Origin: Rhodospirillaceae bacterium MC!
Lineage (GTDB): Bacteria; Pseudomonadota; Alphaproteobacteria; MC1
Length of the DNA stretch: 64,000 nt
Reading direction: 5' to 3'
NCBI GenBank assembly: GCA_002632265.1
Contig: NQOV01000008.1
Span: forward strand, 1-64,000
The notes under the pieces were generated by a model that made no database searches, was not told where the DNA came from, and worked only from the letters and a program-made list of their open reading frames with translations. The stretch's first letter is position 1. Every line of letters starts with the position of its first letter. A program made the translations under genes and the position numbers. Below, piece by piece: positions 1,630 through 59,478 of this stretch.

Positions 1630-1669
1630 TGTGCTTGCCCTTATTTTTATGTTGTGATATTGCTATGTT

Positions 1670-2179: not shown

Positions 2180-2253
2180 GTTCTGACTCCTTTATTATAT
2201 TAAGGGATGTAAAGTGCGATTTGCTTATTTTTATGTTGTAAGAATTGTTGTGT

Positions 2254-2760: not shown

Positions 2761-2774
2761 TGCTTTGCCTTAAA

Positions 2775-3233
2775 TTAGAATTTATTAACAAGAATTTTAC
2801 CGTTTTTTGGTGTTTTGCATAGGGTTATAATTGCAAGGATTAGTATTACAACACTATAAGCAATCCCCACAAAAAGCGTATTGCGTCTTAAGGAGTAATT
2901 TATTAAGCTTATTACGATAGTTAATAAGATCCACAGAAAGCCTTTTTTAGGATTTCCTGCGTAAAATTCGTGGATTCCCAATTGACCAAGGAAGAAAAAG
3001 AATAATCCGTATGGCACTTTGTTAACCGCTACTTTATCTTGTGGCACTTCGATATCGTCGGCGTTTGTGGGTGTTGGTTGTGAGAAGATGTAAGTATCAT
3101 TATGTTTGTGAGCGTCTACTTGCATATTTTCACTAATGGGAAAATTAAATTCGCTTTTTGCCACTTCGATTGTAGAGCTGTCATCCAAACTAACGGTTAC
3201 TTTATCATTATCGATTGTGATTATTTTAGCCAT
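2775..3233 (-). CDS. TM2-domain protein with N-terminal soluble domain
   Basis: This 152-residue member begins MAKIITIDNDKVTVSLDDSS, where DDSS replaces the DDGS of other copies. EFNF, HKHNDTYIFS, the TM2 motif GIHEFYAG (86-93) and the tail KNGKILVNKF follow. It forms a close pair with the next gene upstream at a spacing of 473 bp. The junction sequence around the start and the preceding stop is repeated almost exactly, so the duplicated unit is gene plus spacer. Function unknown. Confidence 0.9.
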   Translation of the reverse strand: MAKIITIDNDKVTVSLDDSSTIEVAKSEFNFPISENMQVDAHKHNDTYIFSQPTPTNADDIEVPQDKVAVNKVPYGLFFFFLGQLGIHEFYAGNPKKGFLWILLTIVISLINYSLRRNTLFVGIAYSVVILILAIITLCKTPKNGKILVNKF

Positions 3234-3247
3234 TGCTTTGCCTTAAA

Positions 3248-3715
3248 TTAGAATTTATTAACAAGAATTTTGCCGTTTTTTGATGTTTTGCATAGGGTTA
3301 TAATTGCAAGAATTATTACTATAATAACATAAATCAAGCCAATAAATGCGAAAAATATAGATTGTTTTTGTAGCATATAACTTATGACCCTTATTACTAC
3401 ACTAACTACAATCCATATTACGCCTTTTTTATGGTTTCCTGCGTAAAATTCGTGGATTCCCAATTGACCAAGGAAGAAAAAGAATAATCCGTATGGCACT
3501 TTGTTAACCGCTACTTTACCTTCTGGCACTTCGATATCGTCGGCGTTTGTGGGTGTTGGTTGTGAGAAGATGTAAGTATCATTATGTTTGTGAGTATCTA
3601 CTTGCATATTTTCACTAATGGGGAAGTTAAATTCTGTTTTTGCTACTTCGATTGTAGAGCTGTCATCCAAACTAACGGTTACTGTATCATTATCGATTGT
3701 GATTATTTTAGCCAT
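3248..3715 (-). CDS. TM2-domain protein with N-terminal soluble domain
   Basis: This 155-residue sister of the gene at 2775-3233 shares long identical stretches, for example the region encoding the TM2 motif and the residues before it (about 3437-3513 against 2956-3032). The TM2 motif is GIHEFYAG followed by NHKKG. Divergence is concentrated in the membrane segments after the motif (VIWIVVSVVIRVISYML). Tail SKNGKILVNKF. A 120-nt spacer and then a decayed TM2 copy lie upstream. Confidence 0.9.
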   Translation of the reverse strand: MAKIITIDNDTVTVSLDDSSTIEVAKTEFNFPISENMQVDTHKHNDTYIFSQPTPTNADDIEVPEGKVAVNKVPYGLFFFFLGQLGIHEFYAGNHKKGVIWIVVSVVIRVISYMLQKQSIFFAFIGLIYVIIVIILAIITLCKTSKNGKILVNKF

Positions 3716-3837
3716 GTTATTATTATCCTTACTTGCTTTTTATATTATATTAAATGGGTGTGAGTCATTTACTGAAGTTTCACATTGAAAGTTATCTTAT
3801 CACATAGCTATTTATAAATCAAGTGTTAAATTTTACT

Positions 3838-3982
3838 TAATTATTTATAGGGTGATATATCCGTGTTTATGGCTTTTGATTCTGATTGCTTTTATGTTAT
3901 CTAAATAACCCATATATTATTTATTAGGTAAACTAACTTGAATGCGTAAGTGATAAATATAGGTAGGGAATTTTTGTTAAAA
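3838..3982 (-). pseudogene. Decayed 3' part of a short-form TM2 gene
   Basis: The DNA aligns closely with the 3' end of the intact gene at 5168-5548; both share TAATTATTTATAGG, GATTGCTTTTATG and ACGTAAGTGATAAATATAGG-like blocks. In the gene's frame the remnant ends ...YGHKHSKIRIAKIND, but a 1-bp deletion near 3905-3925 shifts the frame and exposes stops. The N-terminal half, with the TM2 motif, is missing. It shows that the array once held another short-form copy here. Confidence 0.8.
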
Positions 3983-4471
3983 TTATTTATTTAAGAGAAT
4001 ATTTCCGTTGCGGTTTTCTTTTCTGTTGCAAAGGATTATGATGGCGTAAATTTTTACGAAGATTATGATGTATGACAGATAAAGTAGTGCTAACATTAAT
4101 ATAATTAGTTTGATAACGGGGTCTTCTGCTAGGCTAGCAATGACAATAAAACTGATTGGGATGATAAAGAATAAGGAAGCACGAAAGAATCTTTTAGCGT
4201 AAAATTCGTGAGCACCTACAAAACCTAATAACAGAGCAAAGAGGCAGAATGCTATTTTATTTACGTATATTTTGCCTTCTATTTCAGGTTCTACTTCAAA
4301 GCCTGTTTTGTGGTCAGGGGCAAAAATGTTTTTACCGTCGTGATTGTAGATATTTAAGGGCGTATTTACTTGAATAGGAAAAGTAAATTCTGATCTTGGA
4401 ACGTCGATTGCTGATCCGTCATCTAGTCCAACCATTACTTGATCGATAGTAATTTTAATAATTTTAGCCAT
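3983..4471 (-). CDS. TM2-domain protein with N-terminal soluble domain
   Basis: This 162-residue member has the usual N-terminal block (VMVGLDDGSAIDV, EFTFPI, NHDGKNIFA) and then the linker EVEPEIEGKIYVNK. The TM2 motif is altered to GAHEFYA followed by KRFFRAS, so the usual G-N-x-K-K-G is lost. Three hydrophobic segments follow, then the tail RKENRNGNILLNK. Its start at 4471 follows a weak purine-rich stretch. Function unknown. Confidence 0.88.
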   Translation of the reverse strand: MAKIIKITIDQVMVGLDDGSAIDVPRSEFTFPIQVNTPLNIYNHDGKNIFAPDHKTGFEVEPEIEGKIYVNKIAFCLFALLLGFVGAHEFYAKRFFRASLFFIIPISFIVIASLAEDPVIKLIILMLALLYLSYIIIFVKIYAIIILCNRKENRNGNILLNK

Positions 4472-4514
4472 GTTTGTATATTCTCCATAGTTTTAAGCAT
4501 GTAAGTAGTAGATA

Positions 4515-4577
4515 TTACCATTTACTTATAAGAATGTTAGCGTTGCGGTTTTCTTTGTGATTACACAAACGCATAAC
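4515..4577 (-). pseudogene. C-terminal fragment of a long-form TM2 gene
   Basis: A 20-codon minus-strand remnant translates as ...MRLCNHKENRNANILISKW followed by a stop. It matches the family tail (for example CNRKENRNGNIL and ISKW of neighbours). No upstream TM2 coding sequence remains; the gene at 4587 begins only 9 bp away. This is the second relic showing that copies are lost as well as gained. Confidence 0.8.
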
Positions 4578-4586
4578 AGACTAGAA

Positions 4587-5033
4587 TTATCTTTTGCCTT
4601 TAATAAGAATTTGACCGTTTTCATCAGCCTCTTTGCAGAATGTTATAATTGCACAAATGAATACGGCAGGGATGAAAATCAATAGTGGGAAACATAAACA
4701 GATGATAGATCCCACACATCCAAGAATCCATAGAAAAGCTTTTTTAGGGTTACCTGCGTAAAATTCATGAATGCCAATATGACCAAAGAAGAAAAATAAC
4801 AAAGCATATGGAATTTTATTCACAGGTTTCATGCCATAAGGAATAGGGACGCCTGACGCTGTATTGTTAGATTGTGAGAAAATATATCTATCTTCATGTT
4901 TATAAGCGTCTATAAGCATACCTTCAGCAATTGCAAAATCAAAATCTAGAGGCGAAACCTCTAAAGTTGTTTTGTCATCCATGCCAACTAGTACAAGATT
5001 ATTATCTTTATTAATTTGAAGTATTTGAGCCAT
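4587..5033 (-). CDS. TM2-domain protein with N-terminal soluble domain
   Basis: The 148-residue protein starts MAQILQINKDNNLVLVGMDDKTTLEV, where DDKT replaces DDGS. DFDFAI and YKHEDRYIFS follow, and a 20-residue linker leads into the TM2 motif GIHEFYAG plus NPKKAFLWILG. The last membrane segments are short and Cys-containing (SIICLCFPLLIFIPAVFICA). It ends ENGQILIKGKR. It keeps the two hallmark blocks but diverges elsewhere. Function unknown. Confidence 0.88.
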   Translation of the reverse strand: MAQILQINKDNNLVLVGMDDKTTLEVSPLDFDFAIAEGMLIDAYKHEDRYIFSQSNNTASGVPIPYGMKPVNKIPYALLFFFFGHIGIHEFYAGNPKKAFLWILGCVGSIICLCFPLLIFIPAVFICAIITFCKEADENGQILIKGKR

Positions 5034-5167
5034 TATCTTTGCCTTTGTCTTTTTTCTATGTATATATGATTATATTAATTGTAATATGGATTGTAACATA
5101 TCCATATCTAAAATTTATGTTATCATATAGTGTTGTTCAACACAAGTATTAATTTTTGGTTAATTAT

Positions 5168-5548
5168 TTATAGGTAGATGTATCCCTTTTTATCGCTTTT
5201 GTTTTTGATTGCTTTTATGCCGTCGAGTATGACCCATATGTTATTGATAAGGTAAAGTAACTTTAATACGTAAGTGATAAATATAGGTAATGGATTTTTA
5301 TTTAAACCATTTATTAAGTAATCTAACATGCTTTGATCGTGATTTTGTAGGATCATGATGAATTCCATTAAAAACACGCTAAAGGGAATGCAAAATAATA
5401 TCAGTAAAATTATTCCGTGGAGTGTTTTATTGATGAAGAATTTATGAACGCCCCATGTTCCTAAAAGAAATATGAGCCATACATAGGTTGATTTTTTTAC
5501 TTTTACTTGTTTTATTTTTGTTTTCGGCTTTGGCTTAGGTTGTGGCAT
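5168..5548 (-). CDS. Short TM2-like membrane protein
   Basis: This 126-residue protein is the first gene of the array. It has a Pro/Lys-rich N-terminus (alternating PKPKPKTK) instead of the soluble domain, then the weak TM2 motif GVHKFFIN, a long hydrophobic segment and a further membrane segment ending NKSDKKGYIYL. Its 3' half is the parent type of the decayed copy at 3838-3982. Whether it still counts as TM2 rests on the G-x-H-K-F-F core and its position. Confidence 0.8.
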   Translation of the reverse strand: MPQPKPKPKTKIKQVKVKKSTYVWLIFLLGTWGVHKFFINKTLHGIILLILFCIPFSVFLMEFIMILQNHDQSMLDYLINGLNKNPLPIFITYVLKLLYLINNIWVILDGIKAIKNKSDKKGYIYL

Positions 5549-21959: not shown

Positions 21960-22943
21960 TTAATTTATTTTTATAATTTCTTTTGGGTCGATTTTGTATT
22001 CTCTTGAACAAAATTCACATTTTACTTCAATTTGCTTGGATGTTTGGTCAATAAGATCAAGTATCTCGGCTTGTGGGAAGCCTGACATTGAATTTATTAC
22101 TTTTTCTTTAGAACATCTGCATTTATCTTGGAGTTTTTGTGAGTCGAATGTTAGAATTTTAAATTCGTTGAATAATCTATATAGAATGTCTTCGGCTGAT
22201 AGTTTAGATGATAAAATTTCATCATCTTTTAAAGTGGATGCTAAAGTGGTAATTGTGGCGAATTTTTCATCTGCTTGATCTTCTGTGATGTCATCTCGCC
22301 AAGAATCTGGCATTCTTTGGAGAATTAAGCCACCGCATTCGTTGCCGTTGGTGAATATCTTGATGAAAGTTTCCACTTGATCGGATTGCTTAAAGTAGTT
22401 TGTTGCCGAATCTTCAAGTGTGCTTTCGCCTAAAGCGGTTATGGTTTGATATCTATCGGTATGTTTTCCTTGATCAATGGTAAAGACCATTTGACCGTTG
22501 GGCATAAGGGTTTTTATGAGATCTGTATTTTCTAGATTCTCGGCAATGGGTTTGCCATTTGATTCGCTAGTTGATTCTTTATGGGATTCTTTATGGGATT
22601 CCTTAGTTGATTCGCTAGGATTCTTTGGGGATGAGTTTGCGAATCTTGATTGATCAAAACGTGCTACGGCTCTGATATCTCCTGCGGAAGTGATGTCAGT
22701 TACGAGCGTGCCAACGATTCCATGTTCGGAAAGAATTTGTAAGGTAAATATGCCGTCGTATTGTACTAGCGAGCTAAAAAGCGTAGTTAATACCGCCGTT
22801 TGAGACAATAAAGAATTTACAGAATCAGGATAGTTATGACGATTTTTTATATCTTGCCATATGTGATTTAAGCGTACGATTCTTCCACGAATGGCAGATC
22901 CCTTGATCTCAAAGGGTAATAAGAAATCTTGATAGTTGCTCAT
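21960..22943 (-). CDS. hslO: Redox-regulated chaperone Hsp33
   Basis: Hsp33 is a cytosolic holdase activated by oxidation. The C-terminal zinc module has CRC followed by CEFC, the expected C-x-C and C-x2-C. The 327-residue length exceeds the common 290 or so because residues about 103-140 hold a Ser/Lys/Glu/His insertion with repeats (KESHKESHKES). The N-terminal fold begins FLLPFEIKGSAIRGRIVRL. It is separated from infA by an R3-like segment. The insertion lies in the folded N-domain and probably forms a surface loop. Confidence 0.93.
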   Translation of the reverse strand: MSNYQDFLLPFEIKGSAIRGRIVRLNHIWQDIKNRHNYPDSVNSLLSQTAVLTTLFSSLVQYDGIFTLQILSEHGIVGTLVTDITSAGDIRAVARFDQSRFANSSPKNPSESTKESHKESHKESTSESNGKPIAENLENTDLIKTLMPNGQMVFTIDQGKHTDRYQTITALGESTLEDSATNYFKQSDQVETFIKIFTNGNECGGLILQRMPDSWRDDITEDQADEKFATITTLASTLKDDEILSSKLSAEDILYRLFNEFKILTFDSQKLQDKCRCSKEKVINSMSGFPQAEILDLIDQTSKQIEVKCEFCSREYKIDPKEIIKIN

Positions 22944-26313: not shown

Positions 26314-27792
26314 CTATTCCGTATCGAAGTTTGGTAAAGGCAATTGCTTATGTAAAGATTTGTTTAATTCCTTAGTGTGTGTTGGATTAACGCTTAATTC
26401 TATCACTACTTGATCTTTAGAGTCAACTTTTTTACCTTTTTTTCTAAGTTTGCGATTAAATTTATGATTATTTTTACCATATTTACGATCACAAGGGCCG
26501 ACTTCTGTTAAGGTAGTTTTAAGATTCACATACGCCATACAAGCCTTAATGGAATCTCCCCCACGATAGGCAATCACATCGTAAATATATGCCTCGCCCC
26601 TGTTGGGATGATACAAAGCACTAGAGCCGATTACCGTTTGATTGGCGTTTTTATATTGCACATGTCCGATAGCGGTAACCTTGTCGATCCCTTGGGTGGA
26701 TTTACCGCCGTTATTTTTTGTTAGATAGCCAACAATATGATCCGCTTGGATGATACGATTCTCGGGCTTTACTCCTTTGGTTTTATTTTTTCTCTGTTTG
26801 TAAGTATGAAATTCTTCAGGAGTGGGATAACGGATGATTTTTGCGTGGCCATCCACTTTAACGATGTTATCTTTTATGTTAAATGTAGCTTTGTGTCCTG
26901 TGATTTGTTGGGCGTCCGTATTGATTTTCACATTGCCGATAGCGTTAATCTGGTTAAGATTTATCGTGCTTGTGGATTTGGAGTGATTCTCTTGGACCTT
27001 ACCAGTTTTGAGTACTTCAATGGGAGTTATGGTTGTTGTCAGCTCGTTTGCTTGGATTATTCTACCGTCTGACAAGGCACGTACATCGCCTACCGCTTGA
27101 AATAATCCCGATGTGGTATTGTAGTCAAAATAGTTTTGGGCAACGATAGTAACATGATTGGTAGTAATTTGTAAGGTGGCGTTTTTACCTGCTAAATGCA
27201 CCTTATGATCTGCCACAGACCATACACCTTTATCGCCACTGCCGATAACTTGTTCCGTTTGAAAGCGAACACCGTCATTTAACTTTACAGTATCGATCAC
27301 ATTTATAGTTTGCTTGCTTGGGCTTTGCTTTTCCGTATGATATTTAACATTAATACTTCCACGAGCATAGGCAGTATTAAGATTACTTTTAACATAAGCA
27401 TTCTCAATCAGATCTAAAGAAAAGTGCGATCTATCCCATTTAATTTCCTTATCTGCTGTGAACTCTTGAGAATCTGCAGGAATTTTGCGGACAAGAAGTT
27501 CGTTAAAATCGGGAATCTCTGATACAGGATAAAGGGGGGTAGTGGTATCTTGATTCTGATCTGATAAAGAATCCGCTTGAATTTGGGTTTCCGTTGTATT
27601 GTTGTTCTTGTTAGTATTCTTGTTAGTATTCTGATTAGTATTCTTGTCATTGCTAGTATTACTACTAGTATTAGTATTAGTCTTGCTATTGCTATTAACA
27701 GATCTCGCCACGCTAGATACGGATAGAGCTATTAAAAATAATAAGCCAACTACAAAGGAAGATTTATGAAATTTATGAGAAAATTTTTTCAT
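26314..27792 (-). CDS. lptA: LptA/OstA-family LPS transport protein, enlarged
   Basis: LptA forms the periplasmic beta-jellyroll bridge that carries LPS to the outer membrane. This copy is 492 residues, far longer than E. coli LptA (185). After a signal peptide comes an Asn/Thr/Ser/Lys low-complexity stretch (about residues 34-75), then repeated jellyroll strands: DGVRFQTEQVIGSGDKGVW, KNATLQITTNHVTIVAQNYF, QQITGHKATFNIKDNIVKVDGH and ANQTVIGSSALYHPNRGEAYIYDV. It ends with a basic tail. Its start overlaps the lptC stop (TAATG). More strands could mean a longer bridge or one stable monomer. Confidence 0.85.
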   Translation of the reverse strand: MKKFSHKFHKSSFVVGLLFLIALSVSSVARSVNSNSKTNTNTSSNTSNDKNTNQNTNKNTNKNNNTTETQIQADSLSDQNQDTTTPLYPVSEIPDFNELLVRKIPADSQEFTADKEIKWDRSHFSLDLIENAYVKSNLNTAYARGSINVKYHTEKQSPSKQTINVIDTVKLNDGVRFQTEQVIGSGDKGVWSVADHKVHLAGKNATLQITTNHVTIVAQNYFDYNTTSGLFQAVGDVRALSDGRIIQANELTTTITPIEVLKTGKVQENHSKSTSTINLNQINAIGNVKINTDAQQITGHKATFNIKDNIVKVDGHAKIIRYPTPEEFHTYKQRKNKTKGVKPENRIIQADHIVGYLTKNNGGKSTQGIDKVTAIGHVQYKNANQTVIGSSALYHPNRGEAYIYDVIAYRGGDSIKACMAYVNLKTTLTEVGPCDRKYGKNNHKFNRKLRKKGKKVDSKDQVVIELSVNPTHTKELNKSLHKQLPLPNFDTE

Positions 27793-28472
27793 TATTTTTG
27801 CTCCTTTTTTTCATCTTTTTGTTCATCTGTCGGCTCGTCTGTGGTATTGGGTTTGTTAAATAAAACCACACGAGATTTACCCTTAAGAGTAATTGTCTTA
27901 TTGGTGAGATCGTAGGATAAACCTTGACTAGCAACGAAAAAGCCCGAAGGTCCCCAATCAACAAAGGGGACTTGATTGTTAATCAAGCGATTTTTCACAT
28001 CGATATCCATACTTTCTGCATAGGCTTTATCTTCTCCATTGCGAAGTACATAAACCCCTTTTGATAAAAACATCAAACTTCTTGTACGGTTTAATATCCC
28101 GAAAGATCCACGGATTTTAAATGTTCCACCATTGGCAAAATTTTGTAATAAATCAGCATGTTCTAGATGATATGTGTCATCATTTTTATATTGCGGGTCA
28201 GTATATTTGTAAATTTTATCCGTATGAAGTTTGTAGGTATCTCCTGAAGTTGATGTGCCAACTACGGTACTATTGGTTACAGAAGTTTTAAGATTGGAGT
28301 AATAACCAGTATCAACACTAGTATGAATATTGGTTGTACTACTTTTATGAACCATCGGCCATAGGAATAAAAAGAGCAACAAAACCACAGCCAAAAGCGG
28401 AGCAAAGATCTTGATAAAATGCAGGATCTTTTCTCGTATGGTTCTTTTGTGTATGTTTGTATGATCTATCAT
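27792..28472 (-). CDS. lptC: LPS export protein LptC
   Basis: LptC is a bitopic inner-membrane protein whose periplasmic jellyroll hands LPS to LptA. The 226-residue protein has one N-terminal membrane helix (IFAPLLAVVLLLFLFLWPMV) after a basic cytosolic stretch, then beta-rich sequence (GDTYKLHTDKIYKYTDP, GTFKIRGSFGILNRTRSLMFLSKGVYVLRNG). It ends in a Lys/Glu-rich tail. It follows kdsD by 6 nt and overlaps lptA by one base, so expression is coupled. Confidence 0.88.
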   Translation of the reverse strand: MIDHTNIHKRTIREKILHFIKIFAPLLAVVLLLFLFLWPMVHKSSTTNIHTSVDTGYYSNLKTSVTNSTVVGTSTSGDTYKLHTDKIYKYTDPQYKNDDTYHLEHADLLQNFANGGTFKIRGSFGILNRTRSLMFLSKGVYVLRNGEDKAYAESMDIDVKNRLINNQVPFVDWGPSGFFVASQGLSYDLTNKTITLKGKSRVVLFNKPNTTDEPTDEQKDEKKEQK

Positions 28473-28478
28473 TGTACT

Positions 28479-29480
28479 TTAAATTACTCCAGCCTTAAGG
28501 CAATCTTGCAGATGAATTAATCCTAAAACTTTATTATCTTTATCTTCGATGAATATACTTGAAATTTTTTTCTCTTCCATTATGGATAAAGCCTTGCTCG
28601 CTAAGGATGTATGCAATAGGGTTATGGGCTTAACCTTAATGAATTCACTCACTGGAGCGGAAAGACTATGATTTAAATCATCACTTTGGAAGATTCGACG
28701 TAAATCGCCGTCGGTTATGATTCCCACTAGTTGCCTGTGTTTGGGATCTTTATGATTCTCTGTCATGCTCTCTAGAATACCAACACAACCGAATTTTTTT
28801 TCTGATATGATGCTTATGGCTTCCTTTAGGGATTTATCGCTTGTGATTAACGGTAGTTCATCTTGAATGTGCATAAGATTTTCCACCGTTAATAATTGCT
28901 GACCAAGTTTTCCCCCTGGATGATATTTATAGAAATCATCCGCAGTAAAGCCACGTTTATCCAGTAAGGATATGGCTATGGCGTCCCCCAGCACGATACT
29001 TTGGGTTGTTGATGTGGTAGGAGCTAGTTTTAAGATACAAGCTTCATCCGTATTCGGAATATTTAAGGCCACCTTAGAGGCTTGAGCTAATGTACTATGT
29101 GGATTGCGTGATATGGCTATCAACGGAATGGAAAAGCGAGTGCAGTAAGATATAATATCAGATAACTCGGCAGTTTCCCCTGAATTGGAAAGAGCGATTA
29201 CCACATCATGATCATTTATCATCCCAAGATCCCCATGGCTCGCTTCGGCAGGGTGGACAAATATGGAAGGCGTACCAGTGGATGATAAAGTGGCAGATAT
29301 CTTATGCCCTATGTGTCCACTTTTCCCCATACCTGTAACGACAATCTTACCTTTGCAATTGTAAAGGATATTAATGGCGTCAATGAAATTTTGATTATCT
29401 GCTAGATAATCATGTAAGGCTTGTATTCCTTGTATTTCTACATTAACAAGATCTTGAGCTACTTTTAAAATATCATTCAT
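28479..29480 (-). CDS. kdsD: D-arabinose 5-phosphate isomerase
   Basis: KdsD turns ribulose 5-phosphate into arabinose 5-phosphate, the precursor of Kdo in LPS. The 333-residue protein has an SIS domain (KIVVTGMGKSGHIGHKISATLSSTGTPS and HPAEASHGDLGM) and two C-terminal CBS domains (LITSDKSLKEAISIISEKKFG; FIKVKPITLLHTSLASKAL). It heads the LPS export cluster, which ties Kdo supply to transport. Confidence 0.95.
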   Translation of the reverse strand: MNDILKVAQDLVNVEIQGIQALHDYLADNQNFIDAINILYNCKGKIVVTGMGKSGHIGHKISATLSSTGTPSIFVHPAEASHGDLGMINDHDVVIALSNSGETAELSDIISYCTRFSIPLIAISRNPHSTLAQASKVALNIPNTDEACILKLAPTTSTTQSIVLGDAIAISLLDKRGFTADDFYKYHPGGKLGQQLLTVENLMHIQDELPLITSDKSLKEAISIISEKKFGCVGILESMTENHKDPKHRQLVGIITDGDLRRIFQSDDLNHSLSAPVSEFIKVKPITLLHTSLASKALSIMEEKKISSIFIEDKDNKVLGLIHLQDCLKAGVI

Positions 29481-29624
29481 AATCTAAGTTAGTCTTCGCT
29501 TTAGTATTTCTTATAACATGATAAAGATTAATGTCATAAGTTTAATATCGTTATTTTAATATGCTCTACCATTGTAAAACAATAAGTTTAAAGTTTTATT
29601 AAGTTAATTTATAAAATCTTTTTG

Positions 29625-29652
29625 TTGACACAATCCTTTAAGATGTTATATT
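29625..29652 (+). promoter_or_regulatory. Promoter of the DnaJ-like gene, TTGACA-16-TATATT
   Basis: TTGACA at 29625-29630 and TATATT at 29647-29652. The leader of about 100 nt holds an R3-like fragment (GGAGCGTGCAGAAGATCC). Confidence 0.65.
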
Positions 29653-29760
29653 TATATTATAAAGGAGCGTGCAGAAGATCCTAAGTAAGCACCCCTTATA
29701 TATAAGATGTAAAATTTTTTTTACCATTAATACTAAAATTTAATATTTGAGATATAACCC

Positions 29761-30618
29761 ATGATAGAAAAGAATCCCTATACAATATTAAGATTAAAAT
29801 CAACGGATAACCAAGAAAGCATTAAGCAATCCTTTAAAAAGTTAGCCAAGGAGAATCATCCTGATAATGGTGGGAATGAAGAATATTTTAAAGATGTAAA
29901 TAGAGCATATCAGATTCTTAGCGATCCCAAAGAAAAAGAAAAATATGATAAAGGCTTTATAGATTTCTACGGCAATAAAAAAATAGGTGCAAGCCATAGT
30001 GCAGATTATGCAAAAAAAGCATACGGCAAACATAAAGGCGGTGGACATACACAAGGAAGTAAAAAATGGCGTGATATCTTCGGCGAACATCAAAAAGCCT
30101 TAAATGGAGCAGATGTGTCAGTAACCGTCTATCTAGATATCAAAATAGCTAAAGAAGGCTGTAATCGTATCGTATCCCTACCAAATGGCAAGAAAATTAA
30201 TGTGAAAGTTCCACCACACGCCAAAGATGGACAACAATTAAGAGTAAAAGGTATGGGTAGTGCAGGTAAATTCGGCGGAGAACCAGGCGATGCAATAATC
30301 CACATATACGTAACAGGTCTGCCTAAAGAATATATAAGCGAAAATGATAACTATGTCTATATCCTAAAAGTAACCATAGATGAAGCTATCTTAGGAACTA
30401 AAATAGAAGTGCCATCCCCCACAGGATCACCCCTAATGATAACAATCCCCCCAATGACAAACAATGGTAATCGTTTAAGACTAAAAGGCTTAGGCAAAAC
30501 CTCCAAAGACAGCCTATTCGTAGAAATAAAAGTCGTCTATGATAAAAATGACAAAGACCTCATAAAGTATATGGAAAAGTACTCCAAAAAACGCAAATTC
30601 AATCCTAGAGAATTGTGA
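29761..30618 (+). CDS. DnaJ-like co-chaperone of the CbpA type
   Basis: The 285-residue protein has an N-terminal J domain with the HPD motif (LAKENHPDNGGNEEYF) that stimulates DnaK ATPase. There is no G/F-rich region or zinc-finger module. The two-lobed DnaJ C-terminal substrate domain follows (VTVYLDIKIAKEGCNRIVSLP; DAIIHIYVTGLP; YILKVTIDEAILGTKIEVPSP). Absence of the zinc finger separates it from DnaJ and places it with CbpA-type proteins. It has its own promoter and a hairpin after the stop. Confidence 0.92.
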   Translation: MIEKNPYTILRLKSTDNQESIKQSFKKLAKENHPDNGGNEEYFKDVNRAYQILSDPKEKEKYDKGFIDFYGNKKIGASHSADYAKKAYGKHKGGGHTQGSKKWRDIFGEHQKALNGADVSVTVYLDIKIAKEGCNRIVSLPNGKKINVKVPPHAKDGQQLRVKGMGSAGKFGGEPGDAIIHIYVTGLPKEYISENDNYVYILKVTIDEAILGTKIEVPSPTGSPLMITIPPMTNNGNRLRLKGLGKTSKDSLFVEIKVVYDKNDKDLIKYMEKYSKKRKFNPREL

Positions 30619-33078: not shown

Positions 33079-34044
33079 TTATCTTGCACTACCAAACATT
33101 TTAGGAGAAAATTGGACATTCATGGTATTGATGATTTTATAATATTTTTGCGGTATGGGTATGGGTTTGGATTGTGATTTCTTAAGAGCTTGAATTACGG
33201 AAGTTTTTAAGATCTGATAATTTTCTTGCTCTTCAAAATCTTCGCTAGGATCTACGATAAACTTGATGATTTTCCCTGTTTTTTGATCCACATATATGGT
33301 AACATCAACGCTCATTTTTTGAATATCCTTTAAGCCTGTGGGCTGATTCCAATTGTTTTTTATGAAATTAATGATTTGCGATTGTACTGTGGCATTGATT
33401 TTATCGGCTACTTTGGTACTACCTGCCATGTTTTCGGTTTCTTTGTCCACTTCTTCGAGATCTTCATTTAGCTCTTGAATTTTCGAAAGAGTAGCTTTTT
33501 TCTTGGATTCGGCTTGGTTTTCCTTTTCTGTGTTAGGATCTTTGGCAGATTCGTTCTTTAGTGGTTCGCTCTCCTCTGTGGATTTTGTGTCTGTGGGTTT
33601 TTTATCTGTGTTAGGATCTTGGGTGGATTCGTCCTTTAGGGGTTCGCTCTCCTCTGTGGATTTTGTGTCTGTGGGTTTTTTATCTGTATTAGGATCTTGG
33701 ATTGGATCGGGTTTTTGATTCTTGGGAGAATCGTTCTTGGGAGAATCGTCTTTTATCGGTATATCTTTTGTCGATGTATCCTGAATAGGCTTGATCTTGT
33801 TAGGTATTGCTTTGCTAGGTATCGCCTTGCTAGGTATTGCTTTGGTGTGTGTGTCTTTAGCGTGGGCGTGATTGTCTTTGGCGAAGTGGGTATGGGAATC
33901 TTGGTTGGCGATTTGTGAGACGTCAATATTTATGATATCTAATTTTACTTCCTTATCCTTTGAGATATGAATGAGCAATACGCTAATGAGTACTATAGCG
34001 ATATGCAAAAAGATTGAGCTAACGAAACTTGAAAACTTATCCAT
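33079..34044 (-). CDS. tolA: TolA-like cell envelope protein
   Basis: TolA links the TolQR motor in the inner membrane to TolB/Pal at the outer membrane during constriction. The 321-residue protein has one N-terminal membrane helix (SSIFLHIAIVLISVLLIHI). A charged periplasmic linker (about 55-215) follows with IPSKA repeats and two 26-residue repeats, then a C-terminal domain (SVDVTIYVDQKTGKIIKFIV). The linker is Pro/Asp/Thr/Lys-rich, not the usual Ala-rich helix. Position after tolQ and tolR supports TolA over TonB. Confidence 0.82.
   Translation of the reverse strand: MDKFSSFVSSIFLHIAIVLISVLLIHISKDKEVKLDIINIDVSQIANQDSHTHFAKDNHAHAKDTHTKAIPSKAIPSKAIPNKIKPIQDTSTKDIPIKDDSPKNDSPKNQKPDPIQDPNTDKKPTDTKSTEESEPLKDESTQDPNTDKKPTDTKSTEESEPLKNESAKDPNTEKENQAESKKKATLSKIQELNEDLEEVDKETENMAGSTKVADKINATVQSQIINFIKNNWNQPTGLKDIQKMSVDVTIYVDQKTGKIIKFIVDPSEDFEEQENYQILKTSVIQALKKSQSKPIPIPQKYYKIINTMNVQFSPKMFGSAR
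33548..33703. repeat. 78-bp tandem repeat inside tolA
   Basis: Two 78-bp copies start at 33548 and 33626 with few differences; a third, partial copy lies to the left. They encode 26-residue units containing DPNTDKKPTDTKSTEESEPL. The period is in frame, so copy number would change linker length without breaking the gene. Confidence 0.85.
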
Positions 34045-50048: not shown

Positions 50049-52031
50049 TTAACCATTAGAGCAGAAGTAAGGGAGAAGGCGTTTGTTGGGGTTGGATTTT
50101 AGGCGTTTGAGTACTTTTGGGGAGCATACTCGTTGGTGGGAGTTTTTTGTCTTTGCTTTTGTTTTTGTTTTTGCTTTAGTTTTTGTCTTTGTCTTTGGTT
50201 TGGTTTGGGTTTTGGTGGTTGGGTTGATGGATTGGTTGAGGATTTGTTGTTCGGCGGGGGATAGGGTTATGTTGGTGGTGTTGTCGATGACGAATGATTC
50301 ATCTTTTGGGGGTTGGTTGGTGGTTGTGGTGGTAGTTGGAGAGGTTGGAGTGGGTGTGTTATTATTATTGGCATTATGATTTTGTTCATTGTTTATGGTG
50401 GAACTATGGACTGTTGTTTGGGGTGGGGTTTTTGCTTTAGGGGTAGTTGTTTTCTTGTGAGTTGGGGTTCGGGTCGGGGTTTGGATTGGGGGAGTGTTGG
50501 AGCTGTTGGAGTCGCTGGGTTTTATGGCTAGGGAATCGTCGAAAACGTCAAAGGTTTCGTTACCGCTATCATCGTAATTTGCGATTGAAGATTCTACGCT
50601 TTCGGCGGCGTCTTCTATGGTGTTTGAAAGCATATAATCAAGATTTTTTCTTACTTGGTCTAGGGTTTGCCCTGTGATATCGGCTTCTAGTTTAATAAAA
50701 TAATTTTTTTGGACATTAAGTTGAGCGTCTTCTCGTTCATGATTGCGAATATTTCTTTCGTTTTGATTGGCTACTATGGTATTTTTAATGATTTTATAGA
50801 TATCTTCCGCTTTTGTGGCGTAAGATTTAGGACTCTGTTTTTTTGTCATGATATATAGAGTATTATCATAGGTCATATCATTAAAGATTTTAGCCCAAGC
50901 GATACCACGTATGCGATCTTGAGACACGCCGAATCCTTTCATGTAATAGCCGATAAGGGTTTGTATAGCGTCAGTATTACCTTTTAGAGCTGATTCTTTG
51001 ATTTCGTTAAAGGCGATTTTTATGGCTTTATTGTAGGCGATTTTATTGAGATTAAATTGATGTCTCACGTCGTAACGTGCTTGGCGTTCTTTTTTGCTGG
51101 GAACGTATTTTCTATGATGAGTTCTTAAATATGATTTAGCTTTTAAGATATCTTGAGATATGCGTAAATGCAATTGATCTTGATCTAAATAGGCGTGAGT
51201 ATGATTTTCTTGTAAGGTTGCCAGACCGTGATAATAACATCCGTAGATATTTTGCATTTTACAGGCTTGTTCAAAATATTGATTTGCGATTGTAAGATTG
51301 GGATTCATATTCGTTCCAGAGAAGTATATTAATCCTAAATTTACGGTAGATTGAACATAACCTAAATTACTTGCCTTAGTAAAATATGATTTTGCATTTG
51401 TGATATTAAAAGGCACGCCATGGAATCCATTTAAACTATACACGCCTAATTTATTTAAGACTATCCCTTCTTGATCGTTATTGGCGGCCTCGTGGAATAG
51501 GCTATAACCGATTTTTTTATTGGGCTTAACCGATACCGCACCTACAACATACATTTGCCCAAGGATAAATTGAGCATAGGCATATTGTTCATTTGCCGAT
51601 TGCTTAATGAGATTTACCCCTTTTGTTGCTTCTACCTTATCGTTACCTGCTTGGTTATAGGTTAATAACCCTAGTATTAGTTGGGATGTGGGAACGCCTA
51701 AGTTGGCGTATTTTTCCAAGCATTCTATATTATTACCGCATACGCTATGAATTTTCTTGATATCGATGAAAAATTTAGTTTTATATTCATGTTCTTCGGT
51801 AATTGTTTGGAGATCTGTTAAGGGCGTAGGAGCGTAGGATTGCTTGGTTGATACTTCAGGAATCGGCGGGCTTTTTTCTTGATAGAAATCCTTAACTTGG
51901 GGTTGTGGGACGTCGTTATCTTCGTTAGTTTGCGGATTTTGGCTCGCTGATGTACTATCACTACATGATATTAGAAATATAGAACTCATTAAGACTATTA
52001 TTATGTATAAGCTTTTTTTTAAATTCATCAT
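50049..52031 (-). CDS. Large Sel1-repeat lipoprotein
   Basis: The 660-residue lipoprotein has lipobox LISC (MSSIFLISC). A Sel1-repeat region (about residues 95-400) follows, with units such as SQLILGLLTYNQAGNDKVEA, AQFILGQMYVVGAVSVKPN and TVNLGLIYFSGTNMNPN. A low-complexity tail (about 510-630) is rich in Thr/Pro/Lys, including a KTKTKAKTK run, and ends with a Cys-bearing segment. Sel1 lipoproteins scaffold envelope or host-contact proteins. Two adjacent ATG codons could start it. The KT tail is short-period DNA and may vary in length. Confidence 0.82.
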   Translation of the reverse strand: MMNLKKSLYIIIVLMSSIFLISCSDSTSASQNPQTNEDNDVPQPQVKDFYQEKSPPIPEVSTKQSYAPTPLTDLQTITEEHEYKTKFFIDIKKIHSVCGNNIECLEKYANLGVPTSQLILGLLTYNQAGNDKVEATKGVNLIKQSANEQYAYAQFILGQMYVVGAVSVKPNKKIGYSLFHEAANNDQEGIVLNKLGVYSLNGFHGVPFNITNAKSYFTKASNLGYVQSTVNLGLIYFSGTNMNPNLTIANQYFEQACKMQNIYGCYYHGLATLQENHTHAYLDQDQLHLRISQDILKAKSYLRTHHRKYVPSKKERQARYDVRHQFNLNKIAYNKAIKIAFNEIKESALKGNTDAIQTLIGYYMKGFGVSQDRIRGIAWAKIFNDMTYDNTLYIMTKKQSPKSYATKAEDIYKIIKNTIVANQNERNIRNHEREDAQLNVQKNYFIKLEADITGQTLDQVRKNLDYMLSNTIEDAAESVESSIANYDDSGNETFDVFDDSLAIKPSDSNSSNTPPIQTPTRTPTHKKTTTPKAKTPPQTTVHSSTINNEQNHNANNNNTPTPTSPTTTTTTNQPPKDESFVIDNTTNITLSPAEQQILNQSINPTTKTQTKPKTKTKTKAKTKTKAKTKNSHQRVCSPKVLKRLKSNPNKRLLPYFCSNG

Positions 52032-53630: not shown

Positions 53631-54281
53631 TTACATGTGTTTATCAGGTTCGATAACATCCAAGAAATCTGATAGTTCTTTAAGTAAGATATCTTCAGAT
53701 CCAATAAAACAAGCTTTAACTTTCTTATGTGATGAAACGGTTATCTGACTGTTTCTTTTTCCGCCGATTTTAATTTTGATGTTCGTGGCCACCGAAGTCG
53801 CTCCTGATGTGGAATTCCCCACAAGGATTTTCCCTTTAGATGTACAAATATCAAATTTTGATATTTCTTGGGAACTTAATAGGGGATCAACAATAAAGAA
53901 ATATTCGATTTCTGGACGTCTCATCATCACATGGGTGGCAATGGCCCCGCCAAGTTCTAAGCCCACAAGCATAAATTGGGTTGTTGTGTTGTTGCGTTGC
54001 ATGATCCAATCCATTAGGGTAGAAGTATTAATGACTTCTTCTGTGATCTCATCGAATGTACCGCTCGAATTCCCCATGCCACGATAGTGCATGCCAAAGG
54101 TTACATAGCCACGTTCTGCCACTTTGTACATGATTGTTTTAATATAATCACTGGTACAATCTAGCTCGTGTTTATGTGCGGTTGGTAGTACTATCGCTAC
54201 TACATTTGACTGTAACTCATCGGGAATTTGTATGTAACACTCGAGATTACCTTGACTTGTATGTATTCCATATTGTTGCAT
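53631..54281 (-). CDS. Alpha/beta-hydrolase-fold protein lacking the nucleophile
   Basis: The 216-residue protein follows the COG2945-like pattern: VVAIVLPTAHKHELDCTSDY, FGMHYRGMGNSSGTFDE (the usual N-F-R-G-V-G-x-S-x-G), then an elbow read as VGLELGGAIA. In active relatives the elbow is G-x-S-x-G; here Ser is Glu, and the late Asp and His are not obvious. It is probably a non-catalytic member that kept the fold. It lies between tyrS and the IscR-like regulator. Confidence 0.75.
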   Translation of the reverse strand: MQQYGIHTSQGNLECYIQIPDELQSNVVAIVLPTAHKHELDCTSDYIKTIMYKVAERGYVTFGMHYRGMGNSSGTFDEITEEVINTSTLMDWIMQRNNTTTQFMLVGLELGGAIATHVMMRRPEIEYFFIVDPLLSSQEISKFDICTSKGKILVGNSTSGATSVATNIKIKIGGKRNSQITVSSHKKVKACFIGSEDILLKELSDFLDVIEPDKHM

Positions 54282-54456
54282 TTATCCTAAAGCCCCCTTG
54301 ACAAAATTAAATTTTAATACTAGTCTAATATATAACAAGCACTAATATAATAGCGGTTATTATAGAATGACATACACTAAAACCATGACAATTTAAATAA
54401 TGACAACCATTATAACATAAAAATAAAAATTATCAATAGGAATTTAAAGAAATAAC

Positions 54457-55059
54457 ATGAAACTAGGAAAAAAAACCCATTACGCCGTAGTATCACTTAT
54501 ATATTTAGCTCATGATAACAAGAAAAATGATCCTGTTTCGCTTTCTACTATCTCGGCTAGTCAAGATTTATCCTTAATGTATTTGGAAAAATTGTTCGTG
54601 AATTTGAGAAATGCGGGAATTGTTCAAAGCGTACGAGGCCCTGGTGGCGGATATAAGTTGGAAAAAAAGCCCATAGATGTATCTGTGTGGGATATCGGCT
54701 TGGCAGTTGGCGAAGTGTTCTCCGCTAGCCAGTGCGATAAATGTGCAGGCGATAACTGTTCATCCAACGGCAATAATAAAAGTGAGTGTAATAACACAAA
54801 CGATAAGCATAATCATACACACAATCATACCCACAATTATAATCATGAAACTCACGATCATAAATCTCACGATCATAAGAGTCATAATCATAAGAGTCAT
54901 AACCATGATCATGAGACTCACGACCATAAGGACAATAGCACACTTGCCATGTGTAAAACCTACGCCCTATGGGACGGTTTAGAAAACACCATGCAAACCT
55001 ATCTTGAAAGCATTTCCCTGGATTCTCTTTTAGATAGTTCCAAATGCGACTGGGGTTAA
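54457..55059 (+). CDS. Rrf2/IscR-family regulator with a His-rich insertion
   Basis: The 200-residue protein has the Rrf2 winged helix (MKLGKKTHYAVVSLIYLAH...LSLMYLEKLFVNLRNAGIVQSVRGPGGGYKL). A Cys block follows (C93, C96, C101), then about 60 inserted residues with 17 His in units such as HDHKSHDHK, then C166 in MCKTYALW and the IscR-type end (YLESISLDSLL). In IscR the equivalent block is C-L-T-H-A-L-W, whose His binds the [2Fe-2S] cluster; here it is Tyr169. The insert suggests metal binding. A cysteine desulfurase follows. Confidence 0.88.
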   Translation: MKLGKKTHYAVVSLIYLAHDNKKNDPVSLSTISASQDLSLMYLEKLFVNLRNAGIVQSVRGPGGGYKLEKKPIDVSVWDIGLAVGEVFSASQCDKCAGDNCSSNGNNKSECNNTNDKHNHTHNHTHNYNHETHDHKSHDHKSHNHKSHNHDHETHDHKDNSTLAMCKTYALWDGLENTMQTYLESISLDSLLDSSKCDWG

Positions 55060-55179
55060 TTTAAGACAATATTTAAGACTAATCTAGATATTAATCATAA
55101 TATTAACATTAACATTAACCATACCAATCATAATATTAATTAATAATAATTAAGGAACAGCAGAAAAGGATATCTATAG

Positions 55180-56364
55180 ATGTTTAGCAGTTCACAAACA
55201 CCGCCCATTTACTTAGATTATAACGCATCTACTCCCATAAGTGAGAATGTAAAGTTAAGTATCATGGATATATTAGATGTCTATGGAAACCCCAGTTCCA
55301 CCCATAGCATGGGGATGTTAGCCAACAAGATACTAGAAGATAGCCGAGAAAATATCGCAGAGTATTTGCATATAGACCCACGTCATATGGTCTTTACTAG
55401 CGGAGCGACCGAATCCAATAACATCATATTTAACTCCCATGATGGTTTAATCATAACCGCTATGAGCGAGCATTCATCCATAGTTAATTCCATAAAAGCA
55501 CGCAAAGAAAAAGGATGTATCTTACCCATATGTTCCGCTGGGCATATTAATTTAAACTTGCTAGAAAACAAACTAAAAGAAGAACAAGGACAAGCCAACA
55601 CACAACCCATATTATTATCCCTAGCTTTAGTTAATGGCGTTAATGGGGTTATCGCCCCCATTGAGGCCATTATGGCTTTGGTGGAAAAGTATCAGATCTT
55701 AATTCATTGGGATTGCACTCAAGCTTTAGGCAAAATGCCACTTGATATGGATAAGCTTAATCCCGATTATCTAGTAGCTAGTGGACACAAGCTCGGAGCA
55801 TTAAAAGGCGTAGGCATTCTATATTATAAGAGCCAAATAAAAACCATGTCCCACGGTGGCGGGCAAGAGCTGGGCGTAAGATCAGGCACAGAAAACATTC
55901 TCGCAATCCATAGCCTATCCCAAGCCATTACCCATATTAACATCCCCCATTATCATCAGCACACATCACAGTTAATAGATCACATCCACAAAAAAATTAC
56001 TGACAGTCTCAAGATTGATAACATCAAGCAAACAGATAAACACAACGAAATATTTCTCTTTAGCAGATACTCTAAAGTAAACACCATTCAGAGCATAAAC
56101 AACACCATAATTCTAGCGATGAAAAATAAAACATCAGCTCAACAATTCATGTTATTTGATATGGCAGGTTTTTGCTTATCCATCGGCAGTGCCTGCACAT
56201 CATCGAAAACCGACGCCAATAACTGGTTAGAACCACAAGAAATATCAGACACTTACAAAAATCTCTCCCAATCCATTTTACGAATTAGCATAGGATTACA
56301 AACCACTAAAGAAGAAATAGATAGTTTTATCGATAAATGGTTATCAATATACTTAAGCACTTGA
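55180..56364 (+). CDS. Cysteine desulfurase (NifS/IscS family)
   Basis: This PLP enzyme takes sulfur from cysteine for Fe-S cluster assembly. The 394-residue protein has YLDYNASTPI at the start, TSGATESNN, HWDCTQALGKMPLD, the PLP Lys in VASGHKLGALKGVG, and the active Cys in SIGSACTSSKTDAN. The insertion around residue 260-310 differs from IscS of E. coli. It follows the Rrf2 regulator, an isc-like order, but no iscU, iscA or hscBA is nearby. Confidence 0.92.
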   Translation: MFSSSQTPPIYLDYNASTPISENVKLSIMDILDVYGNPSSTHSMGMLANKILEDSRENIAEYLHIDPRHMVFTSGATESNNIIFNSHDGLIITAMSEHSSIVNSIKARKEKGCILPICSAGHINLNLLENKLKEEQGQANTQPILLSLALVNGVNGVIAPIEAIMALVEKYQILIHWDCTQALGKMPLDMDKLNPDYLVASGHKLGALKGVGILYYKSQIKTMSHGGGQELGVRSGTENILAIHSLSQAITHINIPHYHQHTSQLIDHIHKKITDSLKIDNIKQTDKHNEIFLFSRYSKVNTIQSINNTIILAMKNKTSAQQFMLFDMAGFCLSIGSACTSSKTDANNWLEPQEISDTYKNLSQSILRISIGLQTTKEEIDSFIDKWLSIYLST

Positions 56365-56560: not shown

Positions 56561-57250
56561 ATGCCAAATACAAATTTAATCCCACCATTTTCGCCTATAT
56601 TAATAGCAGGTCTTGCCTTAAAGCATATCCCCATATCTTTACTACAACCTTTATTTAGTAAGGCTATGACTATCATGAGCGAACGTCATGAGCGTGTTTT
56701 TGAGTGTTTGGAAGATGTGGGAAGTCCCTCTTACATTATCAATCCTACGGATCTACCTTTTTTCTTTATTCTGGAAACCAAGCCCGCAAGCTTAACCCTT
56801 TTTAAGAGTTCCGAAATCGACACCCAAACCGCCGACGCTAGAATCACAGGATCATTTGCTTTACTTATCGACCTACTGGAAGGCAAAATCGACGGCGACG
56901 CCGTATTCTTCTCTCGTGATCTCATCGTCGAGGGCGATACCGAGGCCGTGCTTGCCCTAAGAAATGCCATAGATGGCAATGATATTGATGTCTTCTCTCA
57001 AATGTTCGAACCGTTGGGGGGATCACTCCAAGGCGTCGCTCAAGGAGTAACATCAACAGTAGGAGGATTACTCAATAAAGCAGGCGAGAATATGTCAATC
57101 ATAAAAGATTCCATAAATTATGATCTCATTAAGAATATGGATAGCCAAAACTCTCTCATTAAGAAAATGCAAGAACAACTTGCTACCCTAATGAAAGAAC
57201 ACCGCCAAAATAAACGCAAAGACAAAAAGAAAGACGAAAAGAAAGAATAA
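56561..57250 (+). CDS. ubiT: SCP2-domain ubiquinone factor UbiT
   Basis: UbiT carries ubiquinone intermediates through its SCP2 lipid-binding domain during oxygen-independent synthesis. The 229-residue protein has the SCP2 core at about residues 60-150 (FFFILETKPASLTLFKSSE; ARITGSFALLIDLLEGKIDGDAVFFSRDLIVEGDTEAVL). The extra C-terminal helix (KKMQEQLATLMKEHRQNKRK) is strongly basic. It stands 5 nt before ubiU, and ubiV follows, the diagnostic trio. Confidence 0.9.
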   Translation: MPNTNLIPPFSPILIAGLALKHIPISLLQPLFSKAMTIMSERHERVFECLEDVGSPSYIINPTDLPFFFILETKPASLTLFKSSEIDTQTADARITGSFALLIDLLEGKIDGDAVFFSRDLIVEGDTEAVLALRNAIDGNDIDVFSQMFEPLGGSLQGVAQGVTSTVGGLLNKAGENMSIIKDSINYDLIKNMDSQNSLIKKMQEQLATLMKEHRQNKRKDKKKDEKKE

Positions 57251-57255
57251 TTATC

Positions 57256-58242
57256 ATGATGGAACTAGTATGCCCCGCAGGAACTCCTGCTTCTCTAAAA
57301 GTAGCCGTTGACGCTGGAGCTGATTCGGTATATTGCGGTTTTAGAAATGAAACCAACGCTCGCAATTTCCCAGGCTTAAATTTTAGCACCAAAGAAATGG
57401 AAGAAGGTATAGCTTATGCCAACGCCAACGGTTCTAAAGTTCTCGTAGCAATCAACACATTTCCCACCGCAGGCAATGAACAATTATGGCGTGATCATAT
57501 TGATATCGTAGCACGTTGCAAAGCCCATGCAGTTATCTTATGCGACATTAGTCTCCTAGAATATGCACGTACGAAACATCCAGAATTGCGTCGCCATTTA
57601 TCGGTACAAGCGTCGGCCTCCAATCCAGATTCTATCAATTGGTATGTGAATACTTTCGGCGTAAGTCGTGTGGTTCTCCCACGTGTTATGGCCATGGATC
57701 AAATCGCCTACATCAACGAACACACAACCGCCGAACTGGAAACATTCGTCTATGGCGGATTGTGTGTTATGGCGGAAGGCCGTTGCTCTCTTTCTTCCTA
57801 CGCCACAGGAAAATCCCCAAATATGCAAGGTGTATGCTCGCCTGCGTCCCATGTGGAATACATCGAAGAAGGGTCAGAGTTAGTCTCAAAGCTTGGAGAA
57901 TTTACCATCAACAGATTCGGCAAAACCGAACCCGCAGGATATCCAACCCTATGTAAAGGTCGCTTTGTTACTGGCGATGAAGAAGAAAATATATCCTATC
58001 TTTTTGAAGATCCTATCAGCTTAAACGTATCCGAAATGCTTCCAAACTTCGCCAAAGCAGGAGTAAAAGCCCTAAAGATCGAGGGAAGACAACGCAGTAA
58101 AGCCTACGTTAAAGCCGTAGTCCAAGCCTTTAAGCAAGCCGTCCAAGAAGTCGAAAACGGCGAAACCCCAACTCTGGATCTTACCGCCCTATCCGAAGGT
58201 CAACGAGAAACCCAAGGAGCATTCAAAAAAGGCTGGAAATGA
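57256..58242 (+). CDS. ubiU: O2-independent ubiquinone hydroxylase component UbiU
   Basis: UbiU, a U32-peptidase-family [4Fe-4S] protein, works with UbiV to hydroxylate the ubiquinone ring with prephenate as oxygen donor. The 328-residue protein starts MELVCPAGTPASLKVAVDAGADSVYCG. The cluster Cys are seen at C170 and C177 (GLCVMAEGRCSLSS) with further Cys in MQGVCSPAS and TLCKGRF. A late block KALKIEGRQRSKAYVKAVV is typical. There is no protease signature needed for activity. Confidence 0.94.
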   Translation: MMELVCPAGTPASLKVAVDAGADSVYCGFRNETNARNFPGLNFSTKEMEEGIAYANANGSKVLVAINTFPTAGNEQLWRDHIDIVARCKAHAVILCDISLLEYARTKHPELRRHLSVQASASNPDSINWYVNTFGVSRVVLPRVMAMDQIAYINEHTTAELETFVYGGLCVMAEGRCSLSSYATGKSPNMQGVCSPASHVEYIEEGSELVSKLGEFTINRFGKTEPAGYPTLCKGRFVTGDEEENISYLFEDPISLNVSEMLPNFAKAGVKALKIEGRQRSKAYVKAVVQAFKQAVQEVENGETPTLDLTALSEGQRETQGAFKKGWK

Positions 58243-58330
58243 TCAGCGAATCACAGGCCAGCGAGCCCACCCACAACAATATACAAACTAATAACAAACA
58301 ACTAACAATTAAAAATGAAAGATAACAAAA

Positions 58331-58522
58331 ATGGATAATAATTCCCCACAAGATTCGCAGAATAGTAATTCTCAAGATAATTCAAACTCACAAAATAAAG
58401 ATTCGCAAAAGAAATATTTATCAGCAAAGGAACAAGGAGAGCTATTAAAAAAGGCTCTAGGTAGTTTAGATGAGCAAATGGACGCATTCAAAAACATCAG
58501 AGATAGCGATCACGAGCAATAG
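58331..58522 (+). CDS. Small Ser/Asn/Gln-rich protein between ubiU and ubiV
   Basis: The 63-residue frame begins MDNNSPQDSQNSNSQDNSN, a low-complexity polar stretch, and ends with a helix (EQGELLKKALGSLDEQMDAFKNI). Only a weak GAAAGA precedes the ATG. Position inside the ubi cluster on the same strand supports it being made. I know no family match; it may be a lineage-specific partner or chance ORF. Confidence 0.45.
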   Translation: MDNNSPQDSQNSNSQDNSNSQNKDSQKKYLSAKEQGELLKKALGSLDEQMDAFKNIRDSDHEQ

Positions 58523-58569
58523 CGATTGCAAGCAATCATCAACATACACACATGTAAGGATAAATAAAA

Positions 58570-59478
58570 ATGACAACAGAATTTAAATTAAATCTAGGTG
58601 CGAATCCTTTCCATTGGGATCCTGATAAATGGCGTGATTTTTATTTCAAAATAGCCGAAGAGTCTTGCTATGATGAAATACACGTGGGTGAAATGGTATG
58701 TGCTAAACGCTTTCCCACATTCCACAAACAAATCGATGAAGTGGTAGAGAGAATCCAATCTTGCGGTAAAAAGCCGATTCTTTCCACCTTAGCCCTAATT
58801 ATTTCCAATGGCGAAATCAACGTCAATCGTAAATTAGTGGAAAAAGCCGTAAAAAATAATATCACAATCGAAGCCAACGATAATTCAGCCATGCACTTGT
58901 TAAACGGTGTGGAACATGTTATCGGATATCTAGTGAATACCTATAACGAATCCACTTTCGATCTATACGCAAAAGGCGGAGCAACTCGCATATGCCTACC
59001 GCCAGAACTTCCAAGAAAATCCATAAAAGCAATCAGCGAGAATAAAAAATCCACTGCCGAATTGGAAGTCTTCGTCTTTGGTCGCCTACCCCTGGCCATT
59101 GCCACACGTTGCTATCATGCTCGCCATTACAAACTCCCTAAAGAAGATTGTAAACTCATTTGCATAAAAGATCCTGACGGTATGAGCGTCGAAACCGTCG
59201 ACTATGAAGAATTCCTAGTGGCTAATGGTCTTCAAACCATGAGTTTTACTTGTGCAAATCTTATAAATGAAATCGCCGATCTTAAAAATATCGGTGCTAC
59301 AAGCTTTAGAATATCGCCCCATAGCTTTGATATGATCGCCATAGCTAAACAATTCCGTATGGTAATCGATGAACAAATATCCCCCAACGAAGCCACAGCA
59401 AAGTTAAAAGAAATCTGCAATATTCCATTCTCAAATGGCTTTTATTATGGTATTGAGGGCCATAAACTCCAGTTGTAA
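58570..59478 (+). CDS. ubiV: O2-independent ubiquinone hydroxylase component UbiV
   Basis: UbiV pairs with UbiU as the second [4Fe-4S] U32-family subunit. The 302-residue protein has LNLGANPFHWDPDKWRDFY at the start, an early Cys (ESCYDEIHVGEMVC), and the cluster block RCYHARHYKLPKEDCKLIC with spacing C-x12-C-x3-C. It ends EGHKLQL. The trio ubiT-ubiU-ubiV lets the cell make ubiquinone at low oxygen. Confidence 0.93.
   Translation: MTTEFKLNLGANPFHWDPDKWRDFYFKIAEESCYDEIHVGEMVCAKRFPTFHKQIDEVVERIQSCGKKPILSTLALIISNGEINVNRKLVEKAVKNNITIEANDNSAMHLLNGVEHVIGYLVNTYNESTFDLYAKGGATRICLPPELPRKSIKAISENKKSTAELEVFVFGRLPLAIATRCYHARHYKLPKEDCKLICIKDPDGMSVETVDYEEFLVANGLQTMSFTCANLINEIADLKNIGATSFRISPHSFDMIAIAKQFRMVIDEQISPNEATAKLKEICNIPFSNGFYYGIEGHKLQL

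Follow-up and report, generated by a model that had tools for sequence, protein, structure and literature searches.

Can an IscR-type regulator that lacks the usual histidine ligand of its iron-sulphur cluster, and that carries a long histidine-rich insert, still act as a cluster sensor, and might the insert make it a sensor of metals? This question is raised by an open reading frame at positions 54457 to 55059 of the window, by which we mean the whole 64,000-nucleotide stretch of DNA analysed here. Judged by its sequence, the product is a true but unusual IscR ortholog that keeps the Rrf2 winged-helix fold, three cluster cysteines and the gene neighbourhood. We give about even odds (roughly 0.5) to the reading that it is a cluster-dependent regulator with His8 as fourth ligand, that it autoregulates its operon, and that the insert is a loose metal-binding loop.

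Identity and neighbourhood of the protein

The gene and its neighbours are laid out as follows.
53631..54281, reverse strand: alpha/beta hydrolase, a conserved neighbour of alphaproteobacterial iscR
54457..55059, forward strand: iscR ortholog, 200 amino acids, ATG start, Rrf2 domain, IscR clade
54571..54660, forward strand: recognition helix and wing (LSLMYLEKLF...RGPGGGYKL), intact, in invariant alignment columns
55180..56364, forward strand: NifS/IscS-like cysteine desulfurase, the next gene, on the same strand and beside iscR in most relatives

A profile search matched the 200-residue product to the Pfam Rrf2 domain (PF02082, 5e-30); this was the sole Pfam match, with no Fur/Zur or DtxR domain. 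The top NCBIfam model was IscR (TIGR02010), at 116 bits against a cut-off of 207.55. The equivalog threshold was thus missed, because the match, which covers residues 1 to 112, stops at the start of the insert. In the tree the protein falls inside the IscR clade (support 97/86) on a long branch (0.88) beside sampled IscR rows, and outside NsrR and the other non-IscR Rrf2 clades. Its nearest IscR relatives are alphaproteobacterial, and genomes of the same class cluster with the Rhodobacter, Brevundimonas and Thalassospira rows, from which we infer that the class is Alphaproteobacteria. Since the C-terminal half still has its dimer helix (CxTxxLWxxL) as well as the three cysteines Cys93, Cys101 and Cys166, the insert preserves the reading frame and leaves the protein whole. 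Furthermore, the AF2 model has a pLDDT of 88 to 97 in most blocks outside the insert, and its best PDB matches by Foldseek are E. coli apo-IscR and IscR-DNA (4HF0/4HF1).

The genome (2.05 Mb in 19 contigs, 95.5% complete) is the sole sampled genome of its family and order. With alphaproteobacterial IscR proteins of the (Cys)3(His)1 type, the query shares the fold, the recognition helix, the three cysteines and the order hydrolase - iscR - cysteine desulfurase; among 136 relatives' iscR loci, the desulfurase lies in the fetched flank of 123 and the hydrolase in that of 88. It differs from them by Tyr for His107, His for Arg8 and a histidine-rich insert of about 58 residues, and by having iscS, iscU and iscA on another contig, away from iscR. 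No metal transporter or other metal genes adjoin iscR.

Further downstream, at 56561-59478, an SCP2-domain protein and two U32 peptidases stand in a row that resembles the ubiT-ubiU-ubiV genes of oxygen-independent ubiquinone synthesis, with a [2Fe-2S] ferredoxin (60402) and a sulphur-transport protein (60764) nearby. At the other end, the window starts with a 33-bp tandem repeat (483-665; 5.5 copies, 87% match), followed at 696-5548 by a tandem family of about nine small membrane proteins, TM2-like by eye, in whose region there is a 482-bp tandem duplication (2735-3715).

The histidine-rich insert

Two features describe the insert.
54781..54951, forward strand: the roughly 58-residue insert that separates Cys2 from Cys3, seen as an alignment gap and predicted to be disordered
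54808..54927, forward strand: histidine array, residues 118 to 157, with 17 His in HNHT, HDHKS, HNHKS and HETHDHK units

The preliminary description had reported 17 histidines between the cluster cysteines, and our count agrees: of the 19 histidines in the protein, 17 lie within residues 118-157, all inside the insert. At the window's own histidine frequency, 17 in 40 residues has a probability of about 1e-17, and the second-richest of the 58 window genes reaches 7 per 40. The gap from Cys101 to Cys166 is 64 residues, against a normal Cys2-Cys3 spacing of 5 to 15 in 112 proteins that have His107, and this segment contains at most three histidines in every other surveyed Rrf2 protein. In the insert region (blocks 101-160) the AF2 model has a pLDDT of about 49 to 56. 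The repeats noticed earlier are genuine but degenerate, with a period of 15 nt and an 81% match.

HxHxxHxH spacing is typical of metal-binding loops, and because of this spacing the insert is very likely to bind metal in vitro. A stronger proposal is that it is a working metal-sensing module, in which zinc, nickel, cobalt or iron on the HxH array would alter cluster occupancy or DNA binding. The spacing itself fits this proposal, as does a PDB hit, weak and of low complexity, to a binding protein for zinc uptake (1pq4, E 0.019). The product is also the only Rrf2 protein detected in the genome, where searches for two metal-sensor families, FUR and the DtxR C-domain, found no protein of either at 95.5% completeness, so that one regulator may cover more. 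The adjoining cysteine desulfurase has a lineage-specific histidine cluster of its own at 55930-56000 (THINIPHYHQHTSQLIDHIHKK), with six histidines against at most two in 110 homologs; this cluster is only mildly above chance across the window, yet the gene adjoins the histidine-rich IscR.

Against a sensing module, the insert has no conserved site, is predicted to be disordered and is absent from the relatives examined. A non-exhaustive search of GTDB r220 with the insert's own peptides recovered no locus, none of 30 homologs read from genomes of the class carried it (385 genomes sampled, 217 matching at 1e-8; non-exhaustive), and neither did any of 214 proteins in a non-exhaustive Rrf2 survey. 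A histidine-rich Rrf2 protein was likewise not described in the literature searched. The lack of an adjoining metal transporter and the frequency of low-complexity inserts in this genome also count against it, and we consider a working sensing module rather unlikely. The earlier suggestion of zinc, nickel or cobalt sensing is thus neither backed nor contradicted, given no conserved site, the disorder and no adjoining metal genes. That description had also set, against a role for the insert, the case of a one-off expansion without effect that is absent from every relative; the comparison bears out the absence, which holds for every relative examined.

The insert could instead be one of this genome's many simple-repeat expansions, nearly or wholly neutral in a loop that tolerates it, with metal binding incidental, which is compatible with His8 as ligand. 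In-frame low-complexity repeats occur in the window at 33079-34044, 26314-27792, 50049-52031 and 21960-22943, in genes that by eye encode TolA-like, LptA-like, Sel1-type lipoprotein and Hsp33 products. Similar AT-rich short repeats lie directly 3' of the iscR stop codon (55088-55153), and three other genes contain a 30-residue stretch of lower entropy. When the repeat units are aligned as DNA, their differences show no excess at the third codon position (4,1,3). Aligned by residue, the units often differ at synonymous sites only, which would speak against neutrality, but such an alignment is biased. The choice of histidine also looks non-random, given at most seven per 40 residues elsewhere in the window and only one other likely gene in the genome with an HxHxxHxH array. 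Because other in-frame simple repeats are present, simple-repeat growth is a local habit of this genome; the histidine content of the insert is not. We regard neutral expansion as a serious possibility that falls somewhat short of even chances.

The one other gene with the array (locus L260, G000:C13, about 28,000-29,800) is a 566-codon stop-to-stop open reading frame with 48 histidines and the C-terminal tail KHKHKHKHHKHMKHNHNHVHH; the 500 residues scanned had no Pfam match. Within the window, the Hsp33 repeat includes HKESHKEST and the TolA-like protein includes HTHFAKDNHAH.

The fourth cluster ligand

The residues that bear on cluster binding are these; the protein has cysteines at positions 93, 96, 101, 111, 166 and 197.
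54478..54480, forward strand: His8, candidate substitute fourth ligand from the partner subunit, from the position-8 survey
54733..54735, forward strand: Cys93, cluster ligand 1, invariant column
54742..54744, forward strand: Cys96, an extra cysteine and rival fourth ligand
54757..54759, forward strand: Cys101, cluster ligand 2, invariant column
54787..54789, forward strand: Cys111, an extra cysteine in the insert and rival fourth ligand
54952..54954, forward strand: Cys166, cluster ligand 3, invariant column
54961..54963, forward strand: Tyr169 replacing IscR His107, by alignment to an otherwise nearly invariant His column

The alignment confirms Tyr169 at the position of the IscR ligand histidine, as first proposed. 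The preliminary description missed a second change: residue 8 is His in the query and Arg in almost every IscR. We surveyed 156 other Rrf2 proteins with the three cysteines (112 with His107, 44 without), counting Asp, Glu, His or Cys at residue 8 as ligand-capable. Arg8 is present in 107 of the 112 proteins with His107. A ligand-capable residue 8 occurs in 2/112 proteins with His107 and in 27/44 without it (Fisher 1.5e-16, uncorrected for kinship). The two are thus nearly mutually exclusive, although the covariation follows subfamilies, so that few independent events lie behind the pattern. Some candidate fourth ligand is present in 151/156 of these proteins. Note that a Pseudomonadales IscR (L086) is an exception to the rule, with three cysteines, Gln at 107 and Arg8; it keeps its cysteines with neither ligand, so His107 can be lost without a replacement.

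Position 8 is a proven ligand site in NsrR, where the partner subunit supplies Asp8 as fourth cluster ligand (PMC5411485). RirA carries Asn at this position, and its N8D variant has a stable cluster but has lost iron sensing; RirA apparently functions with no fourth ligand from the protein (PMC10510648). Streptomyces coelicolor NsrR ([4Fe-4S], Asp8 in trans) resembles the query in its three cysteines, ligand-capable residue 8 and lack of His107, but it belongs to a separate subfamily, senses NO and has an Asp8-Arg12 pair that the query lacks. Rhizobium RirA likewise has three cysteines and no His107, and residue 8 governs its cluster stability; unlike the query, it has Asn8 and no insert. The closest parallel in pairing is Thermincola potens IscR (PDB 4CIC), whose crystallised sequence has His8 with Lys at 107. 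It is a Gram-positive protein from another phylum with no histidine-rich insert, and is counted among the cluster-sensing IscR proteins (PMC9338935). Because of the near-exclusion of His107 and a ligand-capable residue 8, and because the Thermincola protein shows the same pairing, the fourth ligand has probably moved from His107 to His8, with Cys96 and Cys111 as rivals. The earlier remark that the protein may coordinate its cluster differently gains substance from this possible substitute, although the literature searched contained no demonstration of His8 as a ligand in an Rrf2 protein.

An alternative is a four-cysteine cluster in which Cys96 or Cys111 is the fourth ligand and His8 is not. 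The query has both extra cysteines, and a fourth cysteine lies in the segment of 12/17 three-cysteine Rrf2 proteins that have neither His107 nor a ligand-capable residue 8. In those proteins, however, it belongs to a fixed CxxC site immediately ahead of Cys2 that is missing from the query, and they do not have the His8 that the query has. This arrangement is, in our judgement, unlikely. More doubtful still is loss of the cluster, which would leave a Cys/His site that holds zinc or is empty, and a protein that binds DNA either constitutively or in response to metal alone. His107 is indeed gone, and there is precedent in the Rhodobacteraceae IscR proteins (R. sphaeroides; Dinoroseobacter, 7ZPN), which are alphaproteobacterial and, like the query, have an altered ligand set (PMC4618611); E. 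coli IscR, moreover, binds type 2 sites with no cluster (PMC5411485). The Rhodobacteraceae proteins have lost all three cluster cysteines, whereas the query retains them, in alignment columns that are invariant, and we consider loss of its cluster very improbable.

Candidate operators and the reach of the regulator

Two related inverted repeats lie upstream of the iscR start and are natural candidates for autoregulation.
54346..54364, no strand: inverted repeat TATAATA-GCGGT-TATTATA, candidate operator
54397..54413, no strand: inverted repeat ATAATG-ACAAC-CATTAT, candidate operator, 50 bp further on

Across the genome, a strict form of the operator pattern had 18 sites against 12 in a reversed control (1.5 times), and the sites read with their surroundings lay mostly within genes; we therefore dropped the attempt to define a regulon from it. 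One site upstream of a ccmF-like gene resembles a terminator hairpin and was rejected, and the genome scan found no operator upstream of iscS. The site at 54396 matches a Fur box at 15/19 positions (P 0.0035 in the intergenic stretch). We did not adopt this reading, since the genome has no detected member of the FUR family.

In the reading that we favour, the protein would still act as an iron-sulphur-cluster-dependent transcription regulator, its cluster gripped by three cysteines from one subunit (Cys93, Cys101, Cys166) and by His8 from the partner, in the manner of NsrR Asp8. Through the two upstream repeats it would regulate its own operon of iscR and the cysteine desulfurase. The insert would form a flexible loop off the cluster site that loosely binds zinc, nickel, cobalt, copper or iron; it would at most tune iron supply or cluster lability, and would not be a dedicated metal-sensing domain. 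In a genome with no detected Fur or DtxR, the sole Rrf2 protein could even be a combined sensor, its cluster held in trans by His8 and its lability set by metal on the loop, which we think quite unlikely.

Of the two novelties in this protein, the loop is the more striking and the ligand swap the easier to test. The fourth ligand helps to set the lability of Rrf2 clusters, and hence what is sensed, as in RirA, NsrR and IscR. If the swap is true, an IscR that has exchanged its in-cis ligand, His107, for residue 8 of the partner subunit would bridge the IscR and NsrR modes, and a rule of 'position 8 or position 107' would become testable by single substitutions. If the histidine loop matters too, it would offer one way for a cluster sensor to take on metal sensing where the genome lacks Fur.
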